DNA of 13,844 bases, taken from the NCBI GenBank assembly GCA_015494035.1, contig WGBZ01000166.1:1-13844 (forward strand), in the 5' to 3' direction. Origin of the DNA: Lysobacterales bacterium. GTDB lineage: Bacteria; Pseudomonadota; Gammaproteobacteria; Xanthomonadales; Marinicellaceae. Positions 2,953 to 12,425 of this stretch are shown here, in pieces. The position numbers and the translations under genes are program-made. Numbering within the stretch: the stretch's first letter is position 1; the number at the start of each line of letters is the position of its first letter. Under the pieces are notes generated by a model. The model worked only from the letters and a program-made list of their open reading frames with translations. It was not told the origin of the DNA and searched no databases.

Positions 2953-2982
2953 ACCACGCCGAACAACGAAATCCAGCCACTC

Positions 2983-3146
2983 TAGGGAGCCTCTGATCGA
3001 ATCGTGAACTCGCTTCTCACACCTGAAATGTCCGATAACTGCGTTGAAGTTCTTGCTAATAGCCGGCTATTCGCTGCGATCTCCGCCTTGTTCTCGAACA
3101 TTTCCGGCATAACCTGCTTCGTCCAGATTCAATCAGAGGCTCCCTA
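2983..3146. repeat. Palindromic MITE-like element, copy 1 (subtype A)
   Basis: A 160-bp core (2985-3144) flanked by TA on both sides, filling most of the trxB-aat gap. Its ends are near-perfect inverted repeats: GGGAGCCTCTGATCGAATC on the left, and the complement of the right end differs at one base. Both arms remain recognisably complementary all the way in, for example CCTGAAATGTCCGA on the left against CCGGAAATGTTCGA from the right. The exact midpoint is the CG of AATAGC-CG-GCTATT (3058-3071). No reading frame of note lies inside. It is very similar throughout to the copy at 11369. It ends 7 bp before the aat start codon. Confidence 0.9.
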
Positions 3147-3153
3147 GCTGCCC

Positions 3154-3876
3154 ATGTCAGCGGATGAATTCATCCCCAGTCTGGATGAACTGAACGGCCA
3201 GTTCCCGCCCGTGAGCGAAGCGCTGTGTTCGCCAAACGGGCTGCTGGCCTGGGGCGGCGACCTGTCGCCCCGAACCCTGATCTCGGCCTATTCCAGAGGG
3301 ATTTTCCCGTGGTACAGCGAAGGCGAGCCCATACTCTGGTGGTACCCTAGCCCGCGTGCGGTGATTTTTCCTGAGCAATTGCACGTCTCGCGGCGACTGG
3401 CCCGCCGCCTGCGGAACCTGGACTGGAGCGCTCACCTCAACCGCAATTTTGAATCTGTCATGCGCCATTGCGCCGCACCGCGTCAGGGCCAGCCGGGCAC
3501 CTGGATCAGCCCGGAGATGATGGCCGCCTATACCCGCCTGCATGCCATGGGCTATGCCCAATGCCTGGAAGTGGATATTAACGGCCAACTGGCCGGAGGC
3601 ATTTACGGCGTCACCCTGGGGAATGTGTTTTTTGGCGAGTCTATGTTTTCCTGCCAGAACGACGGTTCCAAAATCGCCATGAAAGCCTTGTGCGATGCAC
3701 TGCGTGTCAGTGGCTACCGCCTGCTGGACTGCCAGTTGCCATCCCCCCATTTGCAACGCATGGGAGCCGTTTCTCTTGCTGCAGAAACATTTCAGTCATG
3801 TCTGCCTGCCGAAGCCGACATAGCGCCACTGCCACTTACTCTGCCAAAAGATCTGCTTATTGCCCAGCCTGACTAA
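3154..3876 (+). CDS. aat: Leucyl/phenylalanyl-tRNA--protein transferase Aat
   Basis: Cytoplasmic enzyme of the bacterial N-end rule pathway. It transfers Leu or Phe from tRNA to proteins starting with Arg or Lys, marking them for ClpS/ClpAP. It is 240 residues, about family length. Family signatures include FPPVSEAL and GLLAWGGDLSP near the N-terminus, YSRGIFPWYSEGEPILWWYPSPR in the usual position (starting about residue 46), and the GNAT-like core GGIYGVTLGNVFFGESMFS with a following DGSKIA and LLDCQ. The start codon has no Shine-Dalgarno match and lies only 7 bp after palindromic element 1, so its 5' leader is mostly repeat sequence. Its stop TAA is formed by the left boundary of palindromic element 2. 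Confidence 0.95.
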   Translation: MSADEFIPSLDELNGQFPPVSEALCSPNGLLAWGGDLSPRTLISAYSRGIFPWYSEGEPILWWYPSPRAVIFPEQLHVSRRLARRLRNLDWSAHLNRNFESVMRHCAAPRQGQPGTWISPEMMAAYTRLHAMGYAQCLEVDINGQLAGGIYGVTLGNVFFGESMFSCQNDGSKIAMKALCDALRVSGYRLLDCQLPSPHLQRMGAVSLAAETFQSCLPAEADIAPLPLTLPKDLLIAQPD

Positions 3877-4039
3877 GGAGCCTCTGATTGAATCTGGCGC
3901 AAGCAGATTGTAATGAAAAATTGTTCAGTTCAAGGCGCAAACCGCACGCAATAGCCAGCTATTGTGAAGGTTTGCCACGCAGAAATGGACGATTTTACGC
4001 CGCAAGATGCCGTGACACGATTCAATCAGAAGCTCCCTA
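3874..4039. repeat. Palindromic MITE-like element, copy 2 (subtype B)
   Basis: A 162-bp core (3876-4037) flanked by TA. The left end reads AGGAGCCTCTGATTGAATC and the complement of the right end GGGAGCTTCTGATTGAATC. Inner arms stay complementary, with a GCAAACC block on each side of the centre. The midpoint is the CA of AATAGC-CA-GCTATT (3950-3963). It shares its ends and centre with copies 1 and 3, but the rest of the arms match only copy 4. The left TA begins the aat stop codon (TAA). The right TA belongs to the stop codon (TAG on the minus strand) of the convergent cyclase gene, so this element is the entire spacer between the two genes. Transcribed from either side, it would fold into a long hairpin. 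Confidence 0.9.
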
Positions 4040-5830
4040 ACCGGGCGTAGTCATTGACCCCGATGCTGAAAACGTGTCGCTGGCGCTTCCATCAAAAACC
4101 TTGACACAATTGCGGCCCGCTTTCTTGGCCTGGTACATGGCCTTGTCAGCCATGGATATCAGTGTTTTGAATTCATGCCCGGCGGCCTGTGTGTCTGCTA
4201 CCCCAAAGCTGGCACTGAAATGGAAAGGCCGTTTATCTGCATCCATCTCGGTGGCGGCCATGTGGGCACGACAGGATTCCGCCACTTTACTGGCCTCTAC
4301 TGTTGTCATGCCAGGCAAAAGGACCGCGAATTCCTCGCCACCGATACGGCCTAGCAAGGCTTCTGGTGGCAGTTTTTTCAGGCAACAGCGAATGGCCTTT
4401 CTCAATACCTGATCTCCTTGCCGATGCCCATAGGTGTCGTTGACCTGTTTAAAGTGATCAAGGTCAAAGACAATCATGCTCGCAGGCTGTTTTTGACGAG
4501 CCAGTTGCGACAGAAGCTTATACGCGGCCTGGCGAAAATAGAAGCGATTGCTAATGCCTGTCAATGAGTCGTGCTGGCTGAGGTACTTCAATTTCCGCTG
4601 ACTGCGACGGGCCTGCCACAGCCACACAAACAGCAAGCCAATGATGGCAGCAAACCAGATCAGCAGCCAGCGATCTCGCCGGGCTTTTTCCACGCTCAGG
4701 CGGTTATTCAAACGCAATATCTGGTTTTGCTGATCCAGCAGAGCGATACGAGTGTCCTTTTCCTGGGTTTTGAATTTTGCCAGCTGCAACGCCAGGCTTT
4801 TGGCCTTATTCTGTTCGTATTGCTCTTTGAGCAAATGCAAAGACTGATGCAGGTGGGTGATGGCATCAGCCAGGTTGTTGTTATGCTCCGCCACCCGATA
4901 TAGCACCTGATGGGACGTCAGCAAGGGCGCCAGATAACGGGGGTCTTCACTGGCAGAAACGGCTCTTTCTGCAACCTCTCTGGCTTCATGATAGCGGCCT
5001 TGTTCAAGCAGCGCCTGAGCCAGAATCGCATTCAGTTCAATGGTCAACATGGAGTAATGGCTGGATTTGGCCGCTGGCAGGTGAGCCCTGATTAATGCTT
5101 CTGCTTTTCGCGCCTGCCCGCGGGCCAACTCAAAACCCGCCTGCTTGGCCCGAATGATCAAGCCCAGCAGCTCTTCACCGTGCTCGCGGCAGTCACTGGC
5201 GGCCTGATCAAAATCGGTTTCGGACAATTCCGGCGACATCAGTTTGGCCAGCGCTTGTACGCGCAGACCCAACTGCAGGCACCGATTACGACCAGTGCTC
5301 TTCTCCTTAATGCGTTCCAATGCTGCCAGCGCTGATTCGGGCTGATCCATTTCATTGTAGAAGAAAGCCGCCACCAGCAAGCCCTCCTGACGAATGGTGG
5401 TGTCCGCAACATTATTGGCATGTTCAAAGATAAAATCCAGGTATTTGAAACCTTGCAGCCATTGACGCTGGAAAGCGAAAAGATTCACCAGCGACAAAGC
5501 ACTGCGATAGCGTATCTGGATGTTGCTGGTGTCCTCAAACAAGGACTCATACGCTGTAACTGCTTGAGGTAACTGCCCCAGATAGGCCAGTTTATAGGCA
5601 TTGAGGTACCGGTACAAATCGGCTTGCTGTGGCGTAAATACAGCGGCTTTCTGTTCAAGTTCAGCCATCAGTTGTTGAAAAAGTGCCGGTTTGGCGGTGC
5701 GAACCGCATCCGCCTGTTTCAGCTTCTGTGACGCATCAGCAAAAACAGCGGCAGTCTGCCCGGTAACACCCGGGCAAGCCAGCAGAAGGCCCAGCATCCA
5801 TGCCCATATCCAGGGCAGCGGTCTGTTCAC
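4037..5830 (-). CDS. Membrane diguanylate cyclase: helical-repeat sensor and GGDEF domain
   Basis: A 597-residue protein expected to make cyclic-di-GMP from two GTP. In order: an N-terminal hydrophobic signal (about residues 5-19, LLLAC could even be a lipobox), a long alpha-helical region with TPR-like repeats (about 45-345), a probable coiled coil (about 345-385), one transmembrane helix (388-406) and a cytoplasmic GGDEF domain (about 418-583). The active-site motif GGEEF (497-501) and the substrate/metal motif FDLDHFKQVND are intact, so it should be active. The product-inhibition I-site RxxD is missing: PPEA stands in its place. The sensor part probably lies in the periplasm. The start is GTG with no good ribosome-binding site, 12 bp after the candidate precursor gene, suggesting translational coupling. 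Its TAG stop overlaps palindromic element 2. Confidence 0.88.
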   Translation of the reverse strand: MNRPLPWIWAWMLGLLLACPGVTGQTAAVFADASQKLKQADAVRTAKPALFQQLMAELEQKAAVFTPQQADLYRYLNAYKLAYLGQLPQAVTAYESLFEDTSNIQIRYRSALSLVNLFAFQRQWLQGFKYLDFIFEHANNVADTTIRQEGLLVAAFFYNEMDQPESALAALERIKEKSTGRNRCLQLGLRVQALAKLMSPELSETDFDQAASDCREHGEELLGLIIRAKQAGFELARGQARKAEALIRAHLPAAKSSHYSMLTIELNAILAQALLEQGRYHEAREVAERAVSASEDPRYLAPLLTSHQVLYRVAEHNNNLADAITHLHQSLHLLKEQYEQNKAKSLALQLAKFKTQEKDTRIALLDQQNQILRLNNRLSVEKARRDRWLLIWFAAIIGLLFVWLWQARRSQRKLKYLSQHDSLTGISNRFYFRQAAYKLLSQLARQKQPASMIVFDLDHFKQVNDTYGHRQGDQVLRKAIRCCLKKLPPEALLGRIGGEEFAVLLPGMTTVEASKVAESCRAHMAATEMDADKRPFHFSASFGVADTQAAGHEFKTLISMADKAMYQAKKAGRNCVKVFDGSASDTFSASGSMTTPG

Positions 5831-5842
5831 AGCAAACGGCTA

Positions 5843-6151
5843 TCAGGCACCGCCAGCAGCGAATCGGCCTGCCTTTCGAGCTGTATCCGTTTGCTCTTCT
5901 TCAGGTGGAGGTGGGGGATCCGAGGGCGCATCTGTGTCTTCCTTTTCCTCGTCCTCCCTGGAAGGAACCAGAAAAGCCACCACTGTATCGCGCGCACCCA
6001 GGGCCTCTGCCAGGGTCTGTTCATCACCACTCAATGCGGCCTGGATCAGCGCTTCTTCAACCCGATATTGAGTGGCCAGCTGTCGTATTTCTTTTGGGTC
6101 GTTTGAGGCTGCTTCACCGAGCGCCTGCAGCCACTGGGTAACGTGATGCAT
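5843..6151 (-). CDS. Candidate split-borosin precursor peptide
   Basis: A 102-residue protein between a borosin-type methyltransferase gene (89 bp upstream) and the GGDEF gene (12 bp downstream). ATG start behind AGGGGG at 5-bp spacing. Residues 1-52 look like a small helical bundle with the pattern LGEAAS..., YRVEEALIQAAL, SGDEQTLAEALG, as I recall for the borosin-binding domain of split precursors such as Shewanella SonA. A short hydrophobic stretch, TVVAFLVPS (56-64), follows directly, in the place where the methylated core sits in SonA. After it comes an acidic, proline-rich tail (EDEEKED, five prolines at 79-83) ending in RKAGRFAAGGA. It has no signal peptide. The gene being real is well supported by its start site and tight packing; the precursor role is inferred from context and layout. 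The core could instead be the C-terminal end. Confidence 0.72.
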   Translation of the reverse strand: MHHVTQWLQALGEAASNDPKEIRQLATQYRVEEALIQAALSGDEQTLAEALGARDTVVAFLVPSREDEEKEDTDAPSDPPPPPEEEQTDTARKAGRFAAGGA

Positions 6152-6240
6152 TCTTTCCCCCTGCTTGTTGCGTAGTTAGGTTTGGTATCAAGACGAACTG
6201 GCCTCGGGGATCACCCCTGTGCTTCTGCGAGACCAATGGC

Positions 6241-7038
6241 CTAATCCTGCTCTTTGAGCCGGGATTTTGCAAGCAATTGTTGAGTTTCATGATCCACTTC
6301 ACACGTTCTGGCAGGCGGTACGACCAGGGTGCTGTGCTGGCTAAGCGCTACAGTGACAAATTTTTTCACTGGAATTGTTTCACTTCTGAAAGAAGAAATA
6401 GGCAAGGTGGCTGCTTCATAAATGGTCATCAGATGGTCTTCCGGGTACATTCGCAACAATTTCTGTTGCAGCAATTGCCTCTCCAGTTTGCCTGTGGACA
6501 GGCGCGAGTGCGTCTCGTCACCCACCACTCCCACTTGCCAGAGAATAAGGTAAGCAGAAGAGTCCACTTCGCGTTTACGGGTCAGAAACTGGGTGGCCTC
6601 ATAATGCTGACAGCCCCACTTTCCCGGGTCGATGCCCAAATCAGCATACAGGCAGTCTGCAGCCGATATAGCGGCTTCCATGCGTGCTGAAAAACCCGCA
6701 CGATGAGCTGCCTCTACCGCACGATGAGCCACGCAGGCAAAAACGCCCGGGTGGCCATAGAAAGCCGCGCACACCCGTATGCCTTTCCGAACACTGCTTA
6801 AAATGGTTTCCACCATACGCTGGTATGTGCGATCACGGGGACAACCAGGTTGGTAGAATACTTGCAAGCTGCGTGCATCCGGGTGCATGTTCTCCAGCCA
6901 TTTTTCCACAATCGGATCAGAGACCGCCATAAACAACCGCTCTGAAAGCGAAATGGCCGAGCGCGCCCTGGGCGTCAGATGTCCACCCAGCATCATCCCG
7001 GTCCCTACGCATACCAAGCTGCCTGTCTGCTTTGTCAT
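6241..7038 (-). CDS. Borosin-type peptide backbone alpha-N-methyltransferase
   Basis: A 265-residue enzyme of the tetrapyrrole-methylase (class III SAM methyltransferase) fold. It is predicted to methylate backbone amides of a peptide substrate. The SAM-site motif VGTG is at residues 11-14. By comparison with fungal OphMA (from memory), the catalytic Tyr66, Arg72 and Tyr76 correspond to Y62, R68 and Y72 with the same spacing (Y-x5-R-x3-Y), and FYGHPGVF (93-100) carries the equivalent of Tyr98. Further family blocks follow: DCLYADLGIDP at about 128, then GC..YEA and a QVGVVGDE-like stretch. It stops after the methyltransferase domain, with no fused C-terminal precursor as in OphMA, so it would act on a separate peptide, best matched by the small gene just downstream. 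The ATG at 7038 is chosen over GTG at 7044 because GAGGAG sits 5 bp before the ATG. Confidence 0.85.
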   Translation of the reverse strand: MTKQTGSLVCVGTGMMLGGHLTPRARSAISLSERLFMAVSDPIVEKWLENMHPDARSLQVFYQPGCPRDRTYQRMVETILSSVRKGIRVCAAFYGHPGVFACVAHRAVEAAHRAGFSARMEAAISAADCLYADLGIDPGKWGCQHYEATQFLTRKREVDSSAYLILWQVGVVGDETHSRLSTGKLERQLLQQKLLRMYPEDHLMTIYEAATLPISSFRSETIPVKKFVTVALSQHSTLVVPPARTCEVDHETQQLLAKSRLKEQD

Positions 7039-7043
7039 AACCA

Positions 7044-7049
7044 CTCCTC
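7044..7049 (-). promoter_or_regulatory. Ribosome-binding site fixing the methyltransferase start
   Basis: On the minus strand GAGGAG is followed by TGGTT and then ATG (7038-7036). The spacing suits the ATG. The in-frame GTG at 7044-7042 would overlap the ribosome-binding site, so the two extra N-terminal residues are unlikely. Confidence 0.8.
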
Positions 7050-7564: not shown

Positions 7565-9268
7565 ATGGCTGAAGCACAGAACACTATCATCATGGAGGGG
7601 GCGCTGCGGCGGCTGGTCATGGATCAGGTTTTGACCAAAGAAATGGCCCAAGACGCCCAAATCAAGTCACGCACGCAGAAAATCCCCCTGTTTCGCTACC
7701 TGGTGGAAAACGACATTGTCCCGGCCGAAGAACTGGCCCATGCCGCCGCCCAGGAATATGGCATTCCCCTGCTGGATGTTACAGCCATGGACCTGTCGCA
7801 AATTCCTCTGCAACTGGTCGAACAGGAGCTGATTGAAAAGCACAACGTGCTGCCACTGTGGAAACGCGGACAAAAGCTTTTTCTGGCGGTGTCCGATCCG
7901 ACTGACTCGCAGGCACTGCGGGACATCGGCTTTCACACCAATTTGTCTGTCAGCCCCATCCTGGTGCAACAGGATGCGCTGGAGGGAGCCATTAACGATG
8001 CCTTCCAGGCCAGCAACGAAGTCATGTCTGGGCTGGAAGAAGAAGGCCTGGCTGACCTGGATTTCGAAGAAGAAACAGTGGAAGACGACAGCGGCTCGGA
8101 TGAAGCTGACGAAACCCCGGTGGTTCAACTCATCAACAAAACCCTTTTGGATGCTTTCCGTCGTGGCGCATCGGATATCCATTTTGAACCGTACGAAAAC
8201 CAGTACCGGATTCGATTCCGCATTGACGGCATGCTGAAAACGGTGGTCAAGCCGCCAAAAAGCTGGTCTCCGCGTATTTCTTCGCGCATCAAGGTGATGG
8301 CGCGGCTGGATATCGCCGAAAAACGGGTGCCCCAGGATGGGCGCGTCAAGCTGAACCTCTCCAAGACCCAGGCCATCGACTTCCGGGTCAGCACCTGCCC
8401 GACACTGTTTGGCGAAAAAATCGTGATGCGTATCCTCGACAGTGCCGCAGCCAAAATGGGCATTGATAAACTGGGCTACGAGGAAGAACAGAAACATTTG
8501 TTTCTGGAAGCCATTAAAAAGCCCTACGGCATGGTGCTGGTCACCGGCCCCACCGGCTCGGGTAAAACGGTTTCCCTGTATACCGCGCTCAATATCCTTA
8601 ACACCGATGGCATCAATATTTCCACTGTCGAAGATCCGGTTGAAATTCGTCTGGCCGGTGTCAATCAGGTACAACAAAACGCCAAACAGGGCATGACTTT
8701 TGCCGCGGCCCTGCGCTCATTTTTGCGTCAGGACCCCGATGTCATCATGGTGGGTGAGATTCGTGACCTGGAAACGGCTGAAATCGCCATCAAGGCGGCA
8801 CAAACCGGTCACATGGTGCTGTCCACCCTGCACACCAACAGCGCCCCGGAAACCATCAGCCGGCTCATGAACATGGGCGTGGCGCCGTTTAATATCACCT
8901 CCGCCGTGTCGCTGGTTATTGCTCAGCGTCTGGCCCGCCGCTTGCATGATTGCAAAAAACCGTCGGAAAAGTCACGCGATGCCTTCCTGGCCGCGGGCTT
9001 TCGTGAAGACGAGCTGGATGACCTGCAGGCCTATGACCCGGTGGGCTGCCGCAAATGCAACGAAGGCTACAAGGGCCGCGTGGGCGTGTATCAAGTCATG
9101 CCCATGACCGACAGCATCAAACGCATTATCCTGGAAGGCGGCAACGCGCTGGAGATCGCCGATCAGGCAAAAAAAGACGGCATTCTGGATTTGCGCGATG
9201 CCGCCTTGCTAAAAGTAAAAAATGGCTTAACCAGTCTGGAAGAAGCCCTCCGAATCACAGTCGAGTAA
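7565..9268 (+). CDS. pilB: Type IV pilus extension ATPase PilB
   Basis: Cytoplasmic hexameric ATPase that powers pilus assembly. It is 567 residues, normal for PilB. An N-terminal T2SSE_N/MshEN-type domain (about 1-150), which in related ATPases can bind cyclic-di-GMP, is followed by an acidic linker (EEEGLADLDFEEE) and the secretion-ATPase core. Walker A GPTGSGKT is at about 328-335, the Asp box VEDPVEI follows, Walker B with DPDVIMVGEIRD is at about 389, and the His box GHMVLSTLHTN comes after that. Near the C-terminus, HDC and GCRKC form the usual four-cysteine zinc site region. ATG start, weak ribosome-binding site. First gene of pilBCD; pilC follows after 4 bp. Confidence 0.96.
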   Translation: MAEAQNTIIMEGALRRLVMDQVLTKEMAQDAQIKSRTQKIPLFRYLVENDIVPAEELAHAAAQEYGIPLLDVTAMDLSQIPLQLVEQELIEKHNVLPLWKRGQKLFLAVSDPTDSQALRDIGFHTNLSVSPILVQQDALEGAINDAFQASNEVMSGLEEEGLADLDFEEETVEDDSGSDEADETPVVQLINKTLLDAFRRGASDIHFEPYENQYRIRFRIDGMLKTVVKPPKSWSPRISSRIKVMARLDIAEKRVPQDGRVKLNLSKTQAIDFRVSTCPTLFGEKIVMRILDSAAAKMGIDKLGYEEEQKHLFLEAIKKPYGMVLVTGPTGSGKTVSLYTALNILNTDGINISTVEDPVEIRLAGVNQVQQNAKQGMTFAAALRSFLRQDPDVIMVGEIRDLETAEIAIKAAQTGHMVLSTLHTNSAPETISRLMNMGVAPFNITSAVSLVIAQRLARRLHDCKKPSEKSRDAFLAAGFREDELDDLQAYDPVGCRKCNEGYKGRVGVYQVMPMTDSIKRIILEGGNALEIADQAKKDGILDLRDAALLKVKNGLTSLEEALRITVE

Positions 9269-10504: not shown

Positions 10505-11371
10505 ATGAATCTGCTGGAAACCCTGCAGGCCAACCCCACGGCGTTGGCCATTGTCACCTTTGTCTTTTCATTGCTGGTTGGCAGTTTTCTCAATGTACTG
10601 ATACTTCGCTTTCCCAAGCGGCTGCAGTACCAATGGACACGGGATTGCAAGGAGCACCTGGGCGAAAAATTTGAAGGCACCCCCCCGCCGGGCATTGTTT
10701 TTGAACGCTCGCACTGCCCCAAATGTGGCTATCAGCTGAAAGCCTGGCAGAACATTCCCCTGTTGGGTTATGTGCTGTTACGCGGTCGCTGCGCCAACTG
10801 CAAGGGAAAAATTGCCGCCCGCTACTGGCTGGTGGAATTGCTCACCGCCATCCTCTCCACGCTGGTGGTTCTCAAGTTTGGCTGGTCCATACAGGCCGCA
10901 GCGGCCCTGGTGCTGACCTGGTGGCTGATTGCCATTGCCTTCATTGACCTCGACACCATGCTGATCCCCGACCAGCTCAGCTTGCCGCTGGTCTGGCTGG
11001 GCCTGATCGTTAACCTCAAAGGCGTGTTTGTCAGTCCCGAACAGGCCATACTCGGAGCAGTGCTCGGCTACCTGATTCTGTGGTCCATCTTTCACCTGTT
11101 CCGGCTGTTAACCGGCAAGGAAGGCATGGGCTATGGTGATTTCAAGCTCCTGGCTGCAGCCGGGGCATGGCTGGGACCCAAGGCCTTGTTACTGGTGCTG
11201 GTGATTTCCTCCATTGCCGGGGCGGTCATTGGCATCACCCAGATGCTGCTGATGCGGCACAAACGCAGCCAGCCCATTCCCTTCGGCCCCTATCTGGCCA
11301 TAGGCACCTGGATTGCCCTGATGTACGGCGACCAACTGCTTGACTGGTACCTGAATGCCGCCGGTCTGTAG
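10505..11371 (+). CDS. pilD: Prepilin peptidase/N-methyltransferase PilD
   Basis: Inner-membrane aspartyl protease that removes the leader of type IV prepilins (and type II pseudopilins) and methylates the new N-terminus. It is 288 residues, the usual size. The zinc-binding cytoplasmic domain has CPKC at 71-74 and CANC at 96-99. The catalytic aspartates lie in FIDLD (D148) and in GMGYGDFK (D212, the GxGD motif). Several hydrophobic helices follow the zinc domain. The start is 2 bp after pilC. The stop TAG (11369-11371) is shared with the left boundary of palindromic element 3; with the element removed, TAG would still end the gene and coaE would begin 4 bp later. Confidence 0.97.
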   Translation: MNLLETLQANPTALAIVTFVFSLLVGSFLNVLILRFPKRLQYQWTRDCKEHLGEKFEGTPPPGIVFERSHCPKCGYQLKAWQNIPLLGYVLLRGRCANCKGKIAARYWLVELLTAILSTLVVLKFGWSIQAAAALVLTWWLIAIAFIDLDTMLIPDQLSLPLVWLGLIVNLKGVFVSPEQAILGAVLGYLILWSIFHLFRLLTGKEGMGYGDFKLLAAAGAWLGPKALLLVLVISSIAGAVIGITQMLLMRHKRSQPIPFGPYLAIGTWIALMYGDQLLDWYLNAAGL

Positions 11372-11532
11372 GGAAGCGCTGATCGAATCATGAACTCGCT
11401 TCTCACATCTGAAATGTCCGATAACTGCATTGAAGTCCTGGCCAATAGCCAGCTATTTGCTGCGAACTTCGCCTTGTTGTCGAGCATTCCAGGCACAACA
11501 TGCTTCGTCCAGATTCAATCAGAGCTTCCCTA
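11369..11532. repeat. Palindromic MITE-like element, copy 3 (subtype A)
   Basis: A 160-bp core (11371-11530) flanked by TA, filling the whole space between pilD and coaE. The left end is GGGAAGCGCTGATCGAATC and the complement of the right end GGGAAGCTCTGATTGAATC. Relative to copy 1 the same end bases have changed on both arms (GAGCC to GAAGC), so pairing is kept. The midpoint is the CA of AATAGC-CA-GCTATT (11444-11457). The body matches copy 1 closely. The left TA starts the pilD stop codon and the right TA is 5 bp from the coaE ATG. An open frame crosses the element into coaE but is judged accidental. Confidence 0.9.
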
Positions 11533-11537
11533 GCCGC

Positions 11538-12161
11538 ATGCCCCTTAACACTGAACCCAAGCCGCTGGTGGTTGCCTTGACCGGTGGCGTGGCGGCGGGA
11601 AAAACACTGGTTTCCGACGCTTTCGCCAGTCTGGGTGTGCCGGTGATAGACGCTGATGTGGAGGCACGGCGTGTTGTGGCACCCGGCAGCCCCGGCTTGC
11701 AGGCGCTGGTGGATGCCTTTGGCCCGGCAATACTGACCGCCAACGGACAATTGGACCGGGCAGCCATGCGTCAACGGATTTTTTCCCAACCCCAAGACCG
11801 CGAAACCCTCAACGCCATCCTCCACCCCATGATTGGTGAACACATGCAAGCCAGGGCTTCTGCTGCCAACAGCGACTACGTGCTGGCCGTGATTCCCTTG
11901 CTGTGCGAAACCCCACGGCGAGACTGGATTGATCGCACACTGATCGTGCAGGCAGACCCGGCCCTGCGTAAAAAACGCCTGATGAAACGCGACAGCATCA
12001 ATGCAGCACTGGCAGCACAGATGATCGCCGCACAGTGCAGCGATGAAGACCGCTTGCAGATGGCAGATGACCTCATCATCAATGAGGATGATCCTGATCA
12101 GGTCACACAGCGGATCAAACACTTGCACACCTTTTATCAGGCCCTGGCGTCCAGCCGGTAA
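11538..12161 (+). CDS. coaE: Dephospho-CoA kinase CoaE
   Basis: Cytoplasmic P-loop kinase for the last step of coenzyme A synthesis: ATP phosphorylates the 3' hydroxyl of dephospho-CoA. It is 207 residues, normal length. The P-loop GGVAAGKT is at 16-23, the substrate-side VIDADVEARRVV at 36-47, then LHPMIG and VIPLLCE, both typical of the family, and the lid region with KKRLMKRD. The ATG at 11538 puts the P-loop at the expected distance from the start; the upstream frame continues into palindromic element 3 but lacks family sequence. No ribosome-binding site is visible, as the leader is the end of the element. It often follows pilD in gammaproteobacteria, as here. Its TAA stop is the left boundary of palindromic element 4. 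Confidence 0.95.
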   Translation: MPLNTEPKPLVVALTGGVAAGKTLVSDAFASLGVPVIDADVEARRVVAPGSPGLQALVDAFGPAILTANGQLDRAAMRQRIFSQPQDRETLNAILHPMIGEHMQARASAANSDYVLAVIPLLCETPRRDWIDRTLIVQADPALRKKRLMKRDSINAALAAQMIAAQCSDEDRLQMADDLIINEDDPDQVTQRIKHLHTFYQALASSR

Positions 12162-12324
12162 GGAGCCTCTGGTTGAATCTGGCGCGAACAGATTGGAGTG
12201 TAAAATTGATCAGTTCAAGGCGCAAACCGCACGCAATAGCACGCTATTGTGAAGGTTTGCAACACAGAAATGGACGATTTTACGCCGCAAGATCCCGTGT
12301 CACGATTCAATCAGAGGCTCCTTA
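12159..12324. repeat. Palindromic MITE-like element, copy 4 (subtype B)
   Basis: A 162-bp core (12161-12322) flanked by TA. Both ends carry AGGAGCCTCTG (complement on the right), differing inside at one base (GGTTGAATC against GATTGAATC). The midpoint is the AC of AATAGC-AC-GCTATT (12235-12248). The body matches copy 2 closely, including the CAGTTCAAGGCGCAAACC block and the GAAATGGACGATTTTACGCC block. The left TA begins the coaE stop codon; removing the element and one TA gives CGG TAA CTG, so the stop is preserved. Confidence 0.9.
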
Positions 12325-12425
12325 ACTGCCTCTTCTGTCCCTGCTGAATTGACTGCTCCACGCTTCTGTTATGCCAGGATGAGGCCTGTCCTCAGGGCCT
12401 TTCAATAAGCCAGCCCGGCAAGCCC

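Follow-up and report, generated by a model that had tools for sequence, protein, structure and literature searches.

The closest described counterpart of the locus considered here is SonM-SonA, the type IV split borosin of Shewanella oneidensis (excerpted text of PMC8429565; PDB 7LTC among other entries), in which enzyme and precursor are separate proteins and the precursor combines a helical binding domain with a short hydrophobic core near its C-terminus. The same excerpts state that no split borosin pathway has so far been tied to a final natural product. We analyzed contig WGBZ01000166.1 of a Lysobacterales bacterium (assembly GCA_015494035.1), a stretch of 13,844 nucleotides called the window below, whose minus strand carries three consecutive genes: a methyltransferase gene (7038 to 6241), then, after a gap of 89 nt, the gene of a 102-residue protein (6151 to 5843), and, after a further 12 nt, that of a 597-residue protein (5830 to 4037) combining tetratricopeptide repeats (TPR) with a GGDEF domain. 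The locus resembles SonM-SonA in its separate enzyme and precursor and in its catalytic residues, and it is almost certainly a type IV split borosin. The joint explanation, in which it forms a three-gene cassette of methyltransferase, precursor and TPR-GGDEF sensor and the methylated peptide would act on the sensor, stands at about even odds; its ligand-receptor part, the proposal that these cassettes produce split borosins as ligands for the neighboring TPR sensors, falls slightly short of that mark.

The methyltransferase and its precursor

The first two genes comprise the following features, all on the minus strand.

6241 to 7038, minus strand: split borosin alpha-N-methyltransferase, a SonM homologue of 265 aa (PF00590, SonM PDB matches, residues, tree)
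5843 to 6151, minus strand: borosin precursor, SonA-like, 102 aa (profile, structure model, same-genus relative)
5993 to 6151, minus strand: predicted borosin-binding domain (leader), residues 1-53
5960 to 5986, minus strand: putative core TVVAFLVPS, residues 56-64 (located past the final helix; the closest relative has KTVVAFLVPSRED)
5846 to 5959, minus strand: acidic, proline-rich tail, residues 65-102 (sequence; low-confidence coil at the tail end in the model)

The methyltransferase open reading frame (ORF) spans 6241-7044 from an in-frame GTG at 7044, and translation probably begins at the ATG of position 7038, which has the sequence GAGGAG just upstream; the coordinates given in a preliminary description of this DNA are correct. 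The protein belongs to the Pfam family TP_methylase (PF00590, 54 bits), and its best PDB matches are the SonM entries (E 3.6e-62), followed by fungal borosins (E 1.7e-44 to 1.2e-38). It is identical to SonM at 108 of 246 aligned residues, and a pairwise alignment matches SonM Y58, Y71, Y93, F99, E146, W166 and Q167. A 26-row alignment matches residues Y62, R68, Y72 and Y94 (numbered from the ATG), which the preliminary description had recognized as an OphMA-like catalytic layout, to SonM Y58, R67, Y71 and Y93; that the pairwise alignment placed SonM R67 two positions further on reflects gap placement. As was also noted there, no substrate domain is fused to the enzyme, the precursor being encoded by an ORF of its own.

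The family search and phylogeny that had been proposed as checks support the assignment to the split borosins. A 33-row tree separates 26 borosin-type enzymes, SonM and the window enzyme among them, from seven CysG-/RsmI-type paralogues with branch support of 92/97, and the window enzyme is the sole match of its kind in its own genome. Its TP_methylase family membership would suit an ordinary tetrapyrrole or rRNA methyltransferase lying beside an unrelated small ORF, a reading made very improbable by the borosin PDB matches, the tree, the conserved core-binding residues and the SonA-like neighbor; a tetrapyrrole methyltransferase identity is rejected on the basis of the tree. Judging from its sequence, the protein is probably a SonM-like backbone N-methyltransferase that methylates the backbone of its small partner peptide.

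That partner had been described as a small protein with a helical leader, an SGD turn and a hydrophobic core-like stretch, and the structure model agrees: helices occupy residues 2-14, 19-28, 33-41 and 44-51, with coil thereafter, SGD (residues 41-43) lies at the turn joining helices 3 and 4, and TVVAFLVPS follows the last helix. The top six structural matches of the model are all SonA, and a profile of 36 precursors searched against the PDB returned SonA chains as the only matches below E 0.07, while sequence searches with the single precursor found no relatives in the PDB, Pfam, NCBIfam or a protein database. As modeled, the precursor therefore has a SonA-like helical binding domain and a hydrophobic core near its C-terminus, although the core itself differs from that of SonA and is followed by a long acidic tail. 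The pairing of enzyme and precursor, originally proposed from adjacency, exceeds chance: it recurs in a same-genus genome, where the methyltransferase (65% identity to that of the window) is likewise followed by a precursor (46% identity). Most precursors from the bacterium's own family (L110-L134) are short proteins whose C-terminus follows a C-x-x-x-P-acidic pattern, for example LVCVLFPDDDDED; the window precursor, with VVAFLVPSRED, has alanine where this pattern has cysteine.

A TPR-GGDEF sensor gene linked to the precursor

The preliminary description had suggested that enzyme and precursor may form a minimal system whose product remains on its leader. Its observation that genes for a protease, a transporter or other tailoring enzymes are absent directly beside the methyltransferase and precursor agrees with Pfam scans of the window, and it missed the co-directional third gene, whose features are listed here.

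4037 to 5830, minus strand: TPR-GGDEF sensor (predicted diguanylate cyclase), 597 aa, with a GTG start 12 nt past the precursor stop (PF00990, 2.9e-42; TPR families)
4883 to 5689, minus strand: TPR domain (residues about 48-316) containing C184 and C214 and predicted to lie in the periplasm (hydropathy, model, superposition, cysteine count)
4616 to 4669, minus strand: predicted membrane helix, residues about 388-405 (hydropathy)
4109 to 4576, minus strand: GGDEF domain, residues 419-574, with GGEEF at 497-501 (Pfam, motif)

Because a TPR-GGDEF gene that recurs beside precursors in many loci lies so close downstream, the minimal-system reading is unsupported as it was argued. Among 33 genomes of the bacterium's family, a same-strand TPR-GGDEF gene occurs within 2 kb of 24 of 27 methyltransferase matches, the three exceptions lying at contig ends, compared with 0 of 46 other PF00590 loci in the same genomes even within 6 kb (a control set that leaves out one row, the second fragment of an already counted gene in genome G001). 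Counted per genome, a sensor match is present in 25/25 genomes with the enzyme and 3/8 without it (Fisher p 2.4e-4, uncorrected for relatedness). The other 26 own-family loci have a GGDEF neighbor in 21 cases and a TPR neighbor in one, and four stop at contig ends. Across 370 genomes sampled class-wide, a sensor of the window type (E 1e-6) occurs in two, the bacterium's own and G351, both of which have the enzyme.

A similar association extends beyond the family. Eighty named loci were kept as the best of 138, so that the set leans toward close relatives; as a same-strand neighbor no more than 1.5 kb away, 52 have a GGDEF gene, six a histidine kinase, three a STAND-TPR gene, three a Ser/Thr kinase and one a TPR gene only, leaving 15 with none, five of which stop at a contig end. 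The GGDEF count includes L090 by virtue of an unrelated upstream GGDEF gene (EAL-like tail, by eye), a histidine kinase being the gene that follows the L090 precursor. With SonM as the query, 95 of 394 genomes matched in the order around genome G334, and in all 20 loci picked from these to cover several families, a sample that lies outside S. oneidensis MR-1 itself, the precursor ORF is adjoined by a GGDEF, kinase or TPR ORF. In two of them, L200 and L201, the enzyme shares 98 and 99% identity with SonM, and the gene immediately following the precursor encodes a TPR-GGDEF protein of 595 aa. A stop interrupts the sensor frame of L207, and the precursor and sensor genes of L217 are oriented divergently relative to the enzyme gene. 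L201 also has two precursor ORFs ahead of one sensor (5399-5914), and L219 has a tandem pair of methyltransferases ahead of one precursor (5172-6825).

A precursor profile seeded by 14 ORFs adjoining methyltransferases matched 113 of 5,411 small ORFs, and a precursor ORF lies directly 5′ of 76 of the 91 GGDEF genes in 134 screened loci (74 of 89, in 67 loci, once two duplicated loci are removed). Gene order is methyltransferase, precursor, sensor in most gammaproteobacterial loci and precursor, sensor, methyltransferase in Undibacterium and Rhodoferax, and six loci carry two or three precursor-sensor pairs with one methyltransferase. Such pairs also occur on contigs lacking the enzyme, which is encoded elsewhere in the genome (L138, L139 and L141), and in one draft genome where the enzyme search found none (L137). 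Six of ten stretches around sensor matches distant from the enzyme contain a precursor match below 1e-9, although one of the six (L142) probably continues a methyltransferase contig that was broken off. The recurring unit is thus precursor plus sensor.

Several observations weigh against a general precursor-sensor partnership. Ten of the 80 named loci have no sensor neighbor though the contig continues, and two loci (L095 and L101) carry a flavin amine-oxidase gene beside the precursor and methyltransferase in place of a TPR sensor. Of the 370 class-wide genomes 15 matched, and loci were taken from ten of the 14 besides the bacterium's own, the four weakest being left out; six of these ten lack a sensor neighbor. 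All six are at most 43% identical to SonM, compared with 45-51% for the four that have one and 44% for the window enzyme, and the link therefore belongs to the SonM-like branch rather than to every borosin enzyme. Precursor and sensor distances correlate (r 0.77; partial 0.44 given the enzyme; 999 permutations, p 0.001), but such a correlation can arise from linked inheritance, and a nearest-sensor test was in agreement for 9 of 13. The loci without a sensor on a continuing contig are also what would be expected if the system consisted of enzyme and precursor alone, with the product remaining attached and the GGDEF neighbor irrelevant. We regard this as improbable in view of the contrast between methyltransferase and control loci in the same genomes and of the frequency with which a precursor directly precedes a GGDEF gene.

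Architecture of the sensor and variant outputs

The sensor model (mean predicted local distance difference test score, pLDDT, 91.5) shows a region of helical repeats, a single long helix and a GGDEF domain. By its active-site motif, GGEEF, the protein is a predicted diguanylate cyclase; no RxxD is present at the usual I-site position of the window GGDEF domain. The window sensor has a hydrophobic stretch near its N-terminus and a membrane helix ahead of the GGDEF domain, which suggests that its TPR domain lies in the periplasm; judged by simple hydropathy, 78 of the 91 GGDEF genes have both. The predicted location bears on the possibility that the methylated precursor is never cleaved and, still whole, serves as an intracellular regulatory partner for the sensor or some other protein. 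The lack of a protease or exporter gene beside the cassette and of an evident signal peptide in the precursor sequence would suit such a role, and a TPR domain placed outside the cytoplasm argues against it; we consider it unlikely. The cysteine pair C184/C214 is kept in 74/74 and 16/16 paired sensors and in 12 of the 15 GGDEF genes for which no precursor was detected, the other three probably not being sensors of the window type. A published chart of borosin architectures suggested a core fused to a GGDEF protein; by eye, the C-termini of the GGDEF genes in these loci show no core-like end, and that reading is rejected.

In several lineages a different output follows the precursor. Alteromonas-/Paraglaciecola-type loci (L075, L090, L091, L096 and L104) have a TPR-HisKA-HATPase-REC gene at this position, an architecture also found in L161-L163. 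In three alphaproteobacterial loci the gene after the precursor matched the STAND-TPR query, and Pfam detects a cyclase domain in the STAND-type gene of L084 (2.5e-05) and, weakly, of L089 (0.0077). A Ser/Thr kinase with TPR is present in L100, the only one of the three counted Ser/Thr-kinase loci that Pfam confirmed, and one with an AAA domain lies near the precursor of L094.

Other variants concern the biosynthetic genes. A GNAT-type acetyltransferase gene, which may encode a further tailoring enzyme, lies between methyltransferase and precursor in L034 (Pfam PF13302) and, by eye, in L035, L037, L055, L056, L050, L052, L127 and similar loci. Two bins labeled Thermoplasmata archaeon (L072 and L081), where mis-binning is possible, have a methyltransferase with a precursor-like ORF just 5′ of it and small ORFs with basic tails.

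These arrangements can be accommodated by a mechanism in which the enzyme would dock the precursor leader and methylate backbone amides within TVVAFLVPS, the core then being freed by an unlinked protease or displayed on the precursor. The methylated peptide would reach the TPR domain and, by analogy with pheromones in Rap receptors, sit in its superhelical groove; binding would alter the pairing of GGDEF domains through the long helix and hence the level of cyclic di-GMP (c-di-GMP), and related loci would couple the same input to histidine-kinase, cyclase or Ser/Thr-kinase outputs. More tentatively, a large and modular family of TPR receptors in Gram-negative bacteria might have split borosins as its peptide ligands, with each backbone-methylated core encoded beside its own receptor, one methyltransferase serving several pairs in trans, outputs swapped by evolution, and a Rap/Phr-like logic moved to the periplasm.

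Genomic surroundings

One flank of the cassette carries plus-strand pilB-, pilC- and pilD-like genes and coaE, and the other plus-strand trkA-, trkH- and thioredoxin-reductase-like genes and a leucyl/phenylalanyl-transferase gene (gene names read from Pfam families). The gene at 7565-9268 on the plus strand, divergent from the cassette, encodes a PilB-like ATPase with an MshEN domain. MshEN domains are receptors for c-di-GMP. With this gene next on the other side, the dependence could run in reverse, the TPR-GGDEF protein sensing something else and c-di-GMP governing expression or deployment of an effector borosin, for example in a biofilm. The operon-like arrangement is compatible with this, but sensors are generally accompanied by a precursor of their own even at loci without a methyltransferase, and the output domain varies while precursor-TPR adjacency is constant; we judge the reverse dependence to be a minor contender. 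A promoter and terminator scan found one promoter-like and seven terminator-like sites, compared with 2.8 and 4.2 in shuffled sequences, and does not inform on operon structure.

The window also contains two families of near-palindromic repeats of about 170 nt resembling miniature inverted-repeat transposable elements, at 2980-3151 and 11366-11537 and at 3874-4041 and 12159-12326, with 87 and 91% identity between the two copies of the respective family. The bacterium's 2.1-Mb draft genome holds at least 41 copies of each at 89% identity or more, and may hold far more, since only 40 of 315 and 40 of 291 candidates were scored.

Relation to known borosins and peptide receptors

The locus adds a further member to a known enzyme class, and its value lies in a testable function. 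With a precursor gene beside a TPR receptor, swapped outputs and duplicated pairs, the role of the widespread split borosins becomes directly testable. If the ligand-receptor proposal is true, backbone N-methylation would give a peptide signal stability and passage, and these loci would represent a Gram-negative peptide signaling system feeding c-di-GMP, as well as a reason for bacterial backbone N-methylation. We do not claim the precursor-sensor pairing as unpublished. The excerpted text of PMC8429565 makes no mention of a sensor gene, and the Figure 1 legend of PMC11395268, as excerpted, includes a GGDEF-containing domain among charted borosin architectures, giving it without a borosin type, TPR sensor, pairing or signaling role. 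In the literature searched, which did not cover the two surveys likeliest to chart gene neighborhoods (Imani 2022; Cho 2022), borosin together with diguanylate cyclase or tetratricopeptide gave no match, with GGDEF only PMC11395268, and with histidine kinase only PMC9505594, unrelated in its excerpted text.

Among the borosins, the fused fungal enzymes OphMA, dbOphMA and MroMA1 share a homologous methyltransferase domain with the window locus, in which, by contrast, the substrate is a separate protein and a signaling gene is linked. On the receptor side, the modeled TPR domain superposes on the RRNPP receptors Rap and NprR over 303-313 residues at 11-14% identity, and here, too, a peptide gene is adjacent. 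The window sensor differs in being predicted to be periplasmic and membrane-bound with a GGDEF output, and its peptide would be backbone-methylated. The gene at 4037-5830 thus has a modeled TPR superhelix of Rap/NprR shape without a prediction of the cytoplasmic location typical of that group, and because of its predicted hydrophobic N-terminus and membrane helix it may at most work like an RRNPP receptor rather than be a member of the family.
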